Below are positions 57,890-61,725 of a stretch of 64,000 nucleotides of DNA, in pieces. Below the pieces are notes generated by a model. It saw nothing but the letters and a program-made list of their open reading frames with translations, did no database searches and was not told where the DNA came from. The position numbers and the translations under genes are program-made. Origin of the DNA: Candidatus Kuenenia stuttgartensis (lineage in GTDB: Bacteria; Planctomycetota; Planctomycetia; Planctomycetales; Planctomycetaceae); NCBI GenBank assembly GCA_945861865.1, contig CAMAWN010000003.1:1-64000 (forward strand), written 5' to 3'. Within the stretch, counting starts at the first letter, position 1, and every line of letters starts with the position of its first letter.

Positions 57890-59611
57890 ATGTCGGACAC
57901 CAAGCTTTCTCGAATGCTCAACCAAATCCATCACGGCGACTGCATTGTCGGCATGAACGCGATGCCGGAGGGGTCCATCGACCTGGCCTTCGCCGATCCG
58001 CCGTTCAACATCGGCTACGACTACGACGTCTACGACGACGCTCGCGCTCGACACGATTACCTCGATTGGTCGCGAGCCTGGATCGGCACGGTCCACCGAG
58101 CACTCAAACCGGACGGTACGTTCTGGCTGGCCATCGGCGACGAATACGCCGCCGAACTCAAACTCATCAGCCAAGAAGTCGGCTTCCACTGCCGCAGTTG
58201 GGTGATCTGGTACTACACCTTTGGAGTGAACTGCAAAGCCAAATTCAGCCGCTCGCACGCGCACCTGTTTCACTTCGTCAAAGACCCGACGCAGTTCACC
58301 TTCCGCTCCGACCTCTTGGAGAATCGCATCCCCTCCGCGCGGCAACTGGTCTACGCCGACAAGCGAGCCAACTCGGTCGGCCGTCTGCCCGACGACACTT
58401 GGATTTTGCGTCCGCAAGACTTGGTCGATTGCCTGACTCCGGGCGAAGACACCTGGTACTTCCCTCGCGTTGCTGGCACGTTCAAAGAGCGAGCCGGATT
58501 TCACGGCTGCCAAATGCCCGAACAACTGCTCGGCCGCATCATCAAGTACTGCTCGAACGAGGGTGACACGGTGCTCGATCCGTTCTCCGGCAGCGCGACG
58601 ACACTGGCGGTTGCGAAGAAACTCGGCCGCCAATTCCTCGGCTTCGATCTCTCGCCGGAATACATCCAACGGGGCCGCGATCGTCTCGCGAATTGCCGAG
58701 TCGGCGATCTGCTCGATGGTGCTGCGGAGCCAGCGGTCAGCGCACCGACCACGCCGCCGAAAGGAACTCGCAAAGGCAAGCTCACAACCATCACTGCGAC
58801 CGAGGCGGCAACGCAGACCGAGGCTCTCTCAACGGAACAGCGTTTTGAAAAAGGCTTGATCGAAGCCTTCGCCAAGTCGAGCCAAGGCTATTCACTCGAC
58901 CGCTTGGTCACGGACCCCGACCTCAATCGCGAGTTCGTTGATCACTGCCGGCGACTCGGCTTGCCCGGAGACGCGCGGCTCTGGAATTGGAAGCTCTTCA
59001 ACTACCGCAAGGCCGGCAAGCTCTCGAGCGTTCCGACCACTCAACGGACGCAAATCAGTTGGCAGGACTGCGACCAATTTCTGTTCGCCAGCGAAATCGC
59101 GCTCGCCAAGATGTTCGCTGATGGCAGTGAAAGCCTCGATGCGATTCTGTGCGACCCCGAACAGGCGGCGCAATTCGATTGCATCGCGCAGTCGTTCTGC
59201 CCCGGCTTAACGCCATTCCAGTACCGTTGGGGCGCGTTGATGCTCCGCAAGGAATCCAAGTCGGCTCGCGCGCGAGCTGACGTGCTCCGCAGCATCGCAC
59301 CCGCGAAGCTGTCATCGGCCAAGCCGCTCGCGACTGCCAAGTGGACTGACTATCCCGATGCGGCGGGGCTGTATCTCGTCCTCGGAGCCAACAGCCGCGA
59401 CAAGCTCTACGTCGGCGGTTCGCTCAACTTGCGGCAACGGCTGCAAACGCAATTCAGCGGTCCACCGCTCCGCACCTGGAAACGGGAATCGGCCGATCTG
59501 CGTGTCCGCTTTTTCACAGCCGAACCGAACACGCCGGAATTGCTGGCGTATCAGTGCTTGCTCATCCGCGAACACCAGCCGAAACTCAACGTGCGAGACA
59601 TCGCCGTCTGA
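57890..59611 (+). CDS. DNA methyltransferase fused to a GIY-YIG-like domain
   Basis: A 573-residue protein. The N-terminal half is a beta-class DNA (N6-A or N4-C) methyltransferase: DPPF (D36-F39) in FADPPFNIGYDYD, and the SAM motif LDPFSGSATT (D230) after it. A linker and a helical region of unknown role (about 330-480, SLDRLVTDPDLNREFVDHC) lead to a GIY-YIG-type domain with GLY at 493-495, YVG at 507-509 and R517. The catalytic Glu position of UvrC-type enzymes seems to be Q555. No separate restriction gene is beside it. uvrB starts 26 bases downstream. The frame is open upstream, but the ATG at 57890 starts the family-like part; the ribosome site is weak. Confidence 0.84.
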   Translation: MSDTKLSRMLNQIHHGDCIVGMNAMPEGSIDLAFADPPFNIGYDYDVYDDARARHDYLDWSRAWIGTVHRALKPDGTFWLAIGDEYAAELKLISQEVGFHCRSWVIWYYTFGVNCKAKFSRSHAHLFHFVKDPTQFTFRSDLLENRIPSARQLVYADKRANSVGRLPDDTWILRPQDLVDCLTPGEDTWYFPRVAGTFKERAGFHGCQMPEQLLGRIIKYCSNEGDTVLDPFSGSATTLAVAKKLGRQFLGFDLSPEYIQRGRDRLANCRVGDLLDGAAEPAVSAPTTPPKGTRKGKLTTITATEAATQTEALSTEQRFEKGLIEAFAKSSQGYSLDRLVTDPDLNREFVDHCRRLGLPGDARLWNWKLFNYRKAGKLSSVPTTQRTQISWQDCDQFLFASEIALAKMFADGSESLDAILCDPEQAAQFDCIAQSFCPGLTPFQYRWGALMLRKESKSARARADVLRSIAPAKLSSAKPLATAKWTDYPDAAGLYLVLGANSRDKLYVGGSLNLRQRLQTQFSGPPLRTWKRESADLRVRFFTAEPNTPELLAYQCLLIREHQPKLNVRDIAV

Positions 59612-59637: not shown

Positions 59638-61725
59638 ATGTCCGACTTTCAACTCGTCGCGCCGTTTGAGCCTGCCGGTGATCAGCCGAAGGCGATTGAT
59701 GCGCTGACGCGCGGCATCCATGAAGGCAAGCGGAATCAGGTGTTGCTCGGCGTCACCGGTTCCGGCAAGACCTTCACGATGGCCAACGTCATCGCGCGGT
59801 TGAATCGGCCGACGCTGATTCTGTCGCACAACAAGACGCTGGCGGCGCAGCTTTATGGCGAGTTCAAAGAGTTCTTCCCGCACAACGCGGTGTCGTACTT
59901 CGTCAGCTACTACGACTACTACCAGCCGGAGGCGTACATCCCGGCTCGCGACATTTACATCGAGAAGGACTCGTCGATCAACGACGACATCGACCGGCTG
60001 CGGCTCGCGGCGACGTCGGCGCTCATCAGCCGGCGGGATGTCATTGTCGTCGCCAGCGTGTCGTGCATTTATGGACTCGGCTCACCCCGCGATTACCTGG
60101 AGATGATGGTCACGCTGCGGCCCGGTGACACCGTGGATCGCGACGAGTTACTGCTGAGGCTGATCGACATTCAGTACAACCGCAACGACTTCGAGCCGTC
60201 GCGCGGCAAGTTCCGCGTGCGCGGCGACGTCGTCGAAGTCTGGCCGGCCTACGAGGAGTTCGCGTACCGCATCGAACTGTGGGGCGACGAAGTCGAGCGG
60301 TTGTCGATCATCAATCCGCTGACCGGCGAGGAAGCCAAGCGGCTCGACGAGTTGTACGTCTACCCGGCCAAGCACTTCGTGATGCCGCAAGAACGTGTCG
60401 CCGCCGCCGTCTCGGACATCGAGGCGGAACTCGCCGAACGGCTCGATCAGTTCCGACAGGAGGGCAAGCTGCTGGAAGCTCAACGCTTGTCGGCGCGAAC
60501 GCGGTACGACATGGAACTGCTCCGCGAAACCGGCTTCTGCCCCGGCATCGAAAACTACTCGCGAGCACTCGCCGGCCGCAAAAAAGGAGAGCCACCGGAC
60601 ACGCTGTTCGCCTTCTTCCCGAAAGATTTCTTGATCTTCATCGACGAGTCACACGTCACGCTGCCGCAAGTCCGCGGGATGCACGCCGGCGACAAGTCCC
60701 GCAAAACAACGCTCGTCGAACACGGCTTTCGTTTGCCGATGGCCCTCGACAACCGCCCGCTGCAATTCGAAGAGTTCGAGAAGATGCGCGGCCAAGCCGT
60801 GTTCGTCTCGGCCACGCCCGCCGATTGGGAATTGGAACAATCGGGCGGCGAAGTCGTGCAGCAAGTCATTCGTCCCACCGGCCTCGTCGATCCGCTCGTG
60901 CATGTGCTGCCGGCTCGCGGACAGGTGCCGCATCTCAAAGAGGAGATCCGCAAGCGAGCCGAACACAACGAACGAGTCCTCGTCACGACGCTCACGAAAC
61001 GGCTGGCCGAAGACCTCACGAACTACCTCGTCGAAGAAGGGGTCCGCTGCAAGTGGCTGCACTCCGAACTCGACACGATTGAACGAGTCGAAGTCATCCG
61101 CGAACTCCGCGAACAAAAGTTCGACGCGATCATCGGCGTGAACCTGCTCCGTGAGGGCATCGACATTCCGGAAGTCTCGCTGGTCGCGATTCTCGACGCC
61201 GACAAGGAAGGCTTTCTGCGGAGCGCGACGAGCCTCGTGCAAACGATCGGCCGCAGCGCCCGTAACGTGAATGCCGAGGTCATCCTCTACGCCGACAAAG
61301 TCACCGACTCGATGCAACAGGCGCTGGACGAGACCAGTCGACGACGAGAATTGCAACTCGCCTACAACGCCGAGCACGGCATCACGCCGGAGACGATCAA
61401 GAAGGCCATCAAGCGCGGCATCGAAGAAGAGATCGCCGCCCAGCGCGTCATCACCGAATCAGTCGGAGTCAGCGAGACGCAGTACGTCACGCAAGAGTTC
61501 CTCAACGAACTCGAACGCGAGATGCACGCCGCCGCGCAGAACCTGGAGTTCGAACGCGCCGCCCAACTCCGTGACCGCATCCTCGAACTCAAAAACCAAG
61601 CCGGCCAAGCGGTCGCCGCCGGTGATCCCGGTTTCAAGTTGGCCCAAAAGAAACCCAAACGGGGCCGAGGTCGTAGAGGTTCAGGCTCGTCAGGCGATCG
61701 GCGAGTACCGAAGCCGGAACGATGA
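59638..61725 (+). CDS. uvrB: excinuclease ABC subunit B
   Basis: A 695-residue damage-verifying helicase of nucleotide excision repair. Walker A is GVTGSGKT with K44, the beta-hairpin has [12 protein letters not shown], and [16 protein letters not shown] plus [17 protein letters not shown] are conserved helicase motifs. The C-terminal UVR domain ([20 protein letters not shown]) binds UvrC, followed by a basic tail. The length is usual. It is close behind the methyltransferase/GIY-YIG gene and overlaps the next frame by ATGA at its stop. Confidence 0.97.

Follow-up and report, generated by a model that had tools for sequence, protein, structure and literature searches.

The gene at positions 57890 to 59611 of the window, the whole stretch of 64,000 nucleotides that was analysed, is probably a solitary, domesticated DNA methyltransferase (M) that stems from a restriction-modification-like operon of M, a nuclease (R) and a small third gene (S), and that carries a pseudo-nuclease module as its tail. 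M is a single chain of a beta-class methyltransferase domain, a helical domain (here MID) and a GIY-YIG fold in which the metal-binding glutamate is replaced. This glutamate is missing from all counted copies of the module that are fused to the methyltransferase and present in the stand-alone copies of the main class, and in a minority of relatives an intact stand-alone copy, R, directly follows M.

The fused gene and its methyltransferase domain

The features of the window gene are listed below with their coordinates and strand.

57890..59611, +, fused gene M (DNA methyltransferase, MID, degenerate GIY-YIG), ATG start, 573 aa
57890..58714, +, beta-class amino-methyltransferase domain, residues 1-275 (Pfam, PDB relatives, motifs)
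58715..58819, +, linker, residues 276-310 (alignment and domain boundaries)
58820..59299, +, MID domain, residues 311-470, two homologous helical repeats (profile match and model)
59324..59608, +, GIY-YIG fold, residues 479-573, predicted to be catalytically dead
59450..59452, +, codon Gln521, at the Arg+4 site that holds His in 19/19 stand-alone nucleases (Eco29kI H108)
59552..59554, +, codon Gln555, at the site of the metal-binding Glu (I-TevI E75, Eco29kI E142)
59638..61725, +, uvrB, a neighbour outside the system

The fusion of a methyltransferase with a GIY-YIG-like domain in one protein, which a sequence-only reading had reported, is real. The profile search proposed there for the methyltransferase half matches residues 30-260 to the Pfam family N6_N4_Mtase (E = 3.8e-49, 168 bits against a cut-off of 26.7), and the C-terminal part has a GIY-YIG fold (discussed below). 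Motif IV, ADPPF (residues 35-39), precedes motif I, DPFSGSATT, which is the beta-class order, and Ala takes the place of the final Gly of FxGxG, both in the window and in many relatives; a motif comparison found the methyltransferase motifs to be common to fused and orphan relatives. Solved relatives of the domain in the PDB include CcrM, M.MboIIA and M.RsrI, and M stays far under the NCBIfam equivalog cut-offs for both PRK11524 (YhdJ-type; 152 against 292 bits) and CcrM (113 against 830 bits). M would more likely modify N6-adenine than N4-cytosine.

A strong match to the methyltransferase (E ≤ 1e-70) occurs in about 49 of 59 relatives, while 4 of the 12 genomes of the genus lack one, so that the gene is common rather than universal. 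Cultured hosts of a fused gene include Thalassoglobus neptunius and strain K23_9. The literature search turned up neither a dedicated methylome study for Planctomycetia nor biochemical or methylome work on any member of the family, and M is a candidate resident DNA methylase for this group. The stop codon of M lies 26 bases upstream of the uvrB ATG at 59638, which agrees with the gap read earlier, and no partner restriction gene adjoins M in the window, as had also been noted.

The tail: a helical domain and a GIY-YIG fold lacking its glutamate

A GIY-YIG profile match in the C-terminus had been named as the check on this half of the protein, and its outcome depends on the profile: with Pfam alone the window stretch scores 14.6 bits and stays under the cut-off of 22.6 bits, but NCBIfam segments, a PDB profile search, the predicted structure and paralogues carry the assignment. 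The last 109 residues of M match the GIY-YIG segments of the DEDD-exonuclease, UvrC and Cho models of NCBIfam (E 1.7e-5 to 2.3e-4), a search of the PDB with the family profile finds GIY-YIG domains of UvrC (E = 1.9e-12), and the model of the tail (pLDDT 96.5, pTM 0.92) overlays the GIY-YIG domains of UvrC, T4 EndoII, I-TevI and Eco29kI (Z 5.7-7.8). Of the paralogues that were tested, the four stand-alone ones lacking a HicB domain all score above the Pfam cut-off, and three fused to HicB stay under it. The window tail has the GIY and YIG motifs of the superfamily fold and keeps Tyr495, Tyr507, Arg517 and Asn567 of the active site.

The metal-binding Glu of GIY-YIG nucleases aligns with Gln555 of M. 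In an alignment of 76 sequences, this Glu is missing in 52/52 methyltransferase-fused copies, with Gln as the commonest natural substitute (Gln in 34, Lys in 8, Arg in 6, Trp in 3 and Ala in 1), and kept in 19/19 stand-alone copies that lack HicB (Fisher 1e-17 for 52 fused and 19 stand-alone copies, which are related and not independent events). The His at catalytic Arg+4 is likewise kept in 19/19 stand-alone copies and in 8 of the 52 fused ones, being missing in the other 44. The five HicB-fused copies form a class apart, with Leu at the Glu position in four and Glu in one. A second collection, which came with organism names and overlaps the first in part (several contigs are identical), lacks Glu in 66/66 counted fused copies and has it in 22/22 counted stand-alone copies, rows being counted where the terminal Asn is aligned. 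In four stand-alone-looking rows with Lys or Gln, which were left uncounted, the gene begins with the first or second base of the locus; as this is a contig edge, the simplest reading is that they are fused genes cut there. Fused copies that stand in tandem with R also lack Glu, hence the loss tracks fusion and not solitude, and since the fused copies are related it may represent one ancient event that was later conserved.

Cleavage by R.Eco29kI is lost in both the E142A and the H108F mutant, the former of which still binds DNA (PMC1952068), and the PDB holds a DNA-binding crystal structure of its inactive E142Q variant (3mx4). The fused fold is predicted to be catalytically dead. An acidic residue occurs five positions ahead of the lost Glu in roughly 45% of the fused copies (Glu550 in the window), which could allow residual activity, and in another nuclease fold, that of BtgZI, Gln can stand for Glu (PMC4081073). 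The Tyr, Tyr, Arg and Asn of the nuclease site are mostly retained across the fused copies, and the methyltransferase, MID and GIY-YIG parts, set against five relatives of the genus, give a dN/dS of 0.02-0.15 in each of the 15 comparisons. Purifying selection, together with the mostly kept Tyr, Tyr, Arg and Asn, indicates that the tail is maintained, though probably not as a nuclease.

The helical middle domain that the sequence-only reading could not name has now been delimited as MID: the search that had been suggested for the middle region alone, run with residues 311-470, found no named family in Pfam or NCBIfam. A profile of one half of MID matches that of the other (E = 8.3e-10, probability 96.5), the modelled domain consists of helices throughout and has similar halves (pLDDT 96.4), and a near-invariant Arg-Lys closes each repeat. 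In searches for structural relatives, Foldseek gave E > 1 and VIA-align a best Z of 4.9; the best VIA-align rows, among them GT-1, GlnRS, ARR1, FlhD, TFIIB and Cre, all with Z < 5, were taken as no evidence. Some of these weak overlays (all Z < 5) are, among others, with DNA-binding helical domains. As these structural neighbours are weak, it is from the company it keeps that MID may be a DNA-binding domain.

The paired nuclease, the small gene and their history

The type II arrangement of a restriction gene beside the methyltransferase is absent from the window and present in relatives: an intact MID+GIY-YIG nuclease, R, lies immediately downstream of M in 20 of the 117 distinct fused loci whose downstream sequence was long enough, on the same strand and abutting or overlapping M. 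In a first tree with six paired nucleases, the R group has a support of 91 and the fused group of 96; in a larger tree with 21 paired nucleases the fused copies form one group (support 94), and the paired nucleases do not strictly form a single group (4 changes). The closest relative of each R is another R and never the adjoining fused gene, hence R is not a recent local duplicate of the tail of M. Distances between the MID domains of M and R are correlated (r = 0.66; partial r = 0.56 given the methyltransferase domain, p = 0.001), much of which co-inheritance alone could account for, and M-MID and R-MID are equally identical within and between operons (0.40 and 0.40), a comparison that does not show a shared target.

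S is a gene of ~118 aa with a conserved PSCF ending that follows M or R; where R is present, S often comes after it. Six of 398 genomes in the class carry S, each time beside M or R, and it had no match in the family libraries searched; examples are given below.

L141 4274-4600; L130 4722-5051; L153 5908-6255, S, ~118 aa, ends PSCF

The window assembly holds one MID-module match and no S. The suggestion that M is an orphan modification enzyme is supported for the window genome, whose assembly has no R or S match; at 90% completeness of the assembly, the absence of both genes from the organism is likely, not certain.

Composition separates paired from solitary genes (p = 7e-9). M genes with R have a GC content below that of their flanks in 16/16 cases, with a median of 4.9 points, while solitary M genes match their flanks (median -0.1 points, n = 100), as does the window gene (60.6% against 60.4% GC). 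Orphans without a tail make up 19 of 96 methyltransferase rows and are interspersed in the methyltransferase tree, on which tail-less orphans require 12 changes and paired loci 7, at least five of each being forced by starred branches; these counts cannot separate gain from loss. The pattern is most simply read as that of an old M-R(-S) unit that repeatedly lost R, S and sometimes the tail, with transfer of the unit in some lineages as an alternative. R may also have been gained repeatedly, since it is found in only 20/117 fused loci and the tandem nucleases are not one clade.

Competing readings, known systems and other carriers of the module

The window gene would thus probably descend from an operon of up to three genes, namely M, R (MID plus an active GIY-YIG) and S (~118 aa). 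R would cut unmodified sites, and M, bearing a matching but dead copy of the module of R, would modify them, with the pseudo-nuclease tail (MID plus GIY-YIG without Glu) most likely acting as a DNA-binding, target-recognition or assembly arm. Many lineages, that of the window included, have M alone, with no R or S, and in some the tail of M is missing as well. It is proposed more tentatively that M-R-S is a new restriction-modification-like system of Planctomycetota, in which M and R read the same site via homologous parts and from which the window gene was domesticated. It is unlikely that M is simply an orphan methyltransferase and its C-terminal module a passive relic without a role: the many tail-less relatives (19/96 rows, interspersed in the tree) and the loss of the catalytic residue fit such a relic, but purifying selection acts on both MID and GIY-YIG within the genus (dN/dS 0.04-0.15), the nuclease Tyr, Tyr, Arg and Asn are mostly retained and the tail is found across many genera and families. 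Similarly improbable is that the paired loci do not serve defence at all, R having another role (e.g., cutting methylated or damaged DNA) and M marking its substrate. This would agree with S being unlike known restriction-modification proteins, with the position of the paired loci, by eye, among housekeeping genes (apparent dnaN and gyrB at L130) and not in obvious defence islands, and with the lack of matches for the window module in plasmids, for a paired R in phages and for the MID alignment in viral contigs; however, the AT-rich composition, patchy distribution and scattered absence of R fit the behaviour of restriction-modification systems.

Two further functions raised by the sequence-only reading find little support. 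For M to be a self-contained restriction-modification protein, i.e., a single-chain type IIC-like enzyme whose C-terminal GIY-YIG cuts while its methyltransferase protects, is very unlikely: both folds do lie within one chain and an engineered RM.Eco29kI fusion is functional (PMC3039593), but Glu is absent in every counted fused copy and His in 44/52, and a separate gene supplies an intact nuclease in 20 loci. Least probable of all, and not supported, is a role in repair, in which M would act together with UvrB, perhaps as an accessory of the UvrC type. In its favour are the 26 bp between M and uvrB, found in the window and also in a second genome (G003), and UvrC as the nearest solved structure to the GIY-YIG of M. 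In two other genomes of the genus (G006 and G009), however, ~500 bp with a conserved ORF separate the two genes, and uvrB is not beside M in G001, G004 or any other locus examined, so that the adjacency is confined to the genus and amounts to local synteny. Hence, of the conservation across planctomycetes that had been asked about, the fusion is borne out in many genera and families and the uvrB neighbourhood in the genus only. Moreover, UvrC itself is present in 55/59 relatives, and M lacks both the active-site Glu and any other UvrC domain, no UvrC RNase H-like domain having been found in it. Neighbourhood clustering was swamped by spurious antisense ORFs and served mainly for S and uvrB.

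L054 273-787; L055 2586-3105, conserved ORF (CPMCEKLT...) that separates M from uvrB in two genomes of the genus

The ~500 bp in G006 and G009 had been considered as a nuclease remnant, which was rejected, the ORF being unrelated. In the window assembly (G000) no UvrC RNase H-like domain was found, and as nearly all relatives have UvrC, this is treated as incompleteness, probably a missing contig.

With the beta-class solitary or type II methyltransferases (CcrM, M.MboIIA, M.RsrI, YhdJ) M shares the catalytic domain and the order of motif IV before motif I, and its best matches in the PDB and NCBIfam are of this kind, but it has about 300 further residues (MID and pseudo-GIY-YIG). In the GIY-YIG type II systems Eco29kI, Cfr42I, Hpy188I and DraR1, a methyltransferase is paired with a GIY-YIG nuclease, as in some relatives of M; here, in contrast, M and R share a homologous MID+GIY-YIG that is inactive on M, a third small gene, S, may follow, and MID has no library family. 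Type IIC/IIG enzymes and the engineered RM.Eco29kI fusion also combine a nuclease fold and a methyltransferase in one chain (PMC4081073, PMC3039593), whereas the nuclease fold of M is predicted to be dead, its beta-class methyltransferase is N-terminal and cutting, where present, would occur in trans. UvrC and Cho have the GIY-YIG fold and are the nearest solved structures to the tail, but M lacks their other domains, its catalytic Glu is replaced and the neighbourhood link is not conserved. The same domain order is found in a GIY-YIG nuclease of Lactobacillales with an N-terminal COG4123 methyltransferase, which differs in its methyltransferase family, its Slx1-like nuclease and the absence of a described MID (PMC1564403). 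No paper on the planctomycete methyltransferase-GIY-YIG fusion was found in a search that missed most subscription journals, hence priority cannot be claimed. A methyltransferase with a dead homologue of the module of its nuclease would make the matching of two specificities directly testable, and the M family would illustrate a route from a defence pair to a solitary epigenetic enzyme.

In a search of the phylum, the MID+GIY-YIG module was seen in the class of the window and in one genome of another class, to which the L289 carrier belongs. Beyond M and R, it occurs in several further proteins, examples of which are listed below.

L067 6973-7911; L068 2407-3438; L139 4980-6122; L289 4895-5917, stand-alone MID+GIY-YIG with a signal-peptide-like N-terminus
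L069 1614-2879; L161 4918-6090; L165 4654-5862, HicB/RHH-MID-GIY-YIG, catalytic Glu replaced by Leu
L198 4314-7652; L199 1183-6117, DrmMI/Eco57I-like methyltransferase with C-terminal MID and degenerate GIY-YIG

Stand-alone carriers with an intact active site and an N-terminus that resembles a signal peptide by eye (L067, L068, L139, L144, L148, L154 and L289) are possibly exported nucleases, and a HicB/RHH domain is fused to the module in L069, L161, L165, L171 and L176. The proteins of L198 and L199 represent a second, unrelated methyltransferase with a degraded GIY-YIG, which supports a non-cutting role of the module on methyltransferases and hints that the dead module may serve as a specificity part that can be reused. 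At L073 (6667-7848), an orphan methyltransferase ends in what appears to be a decaying remnant of MID.
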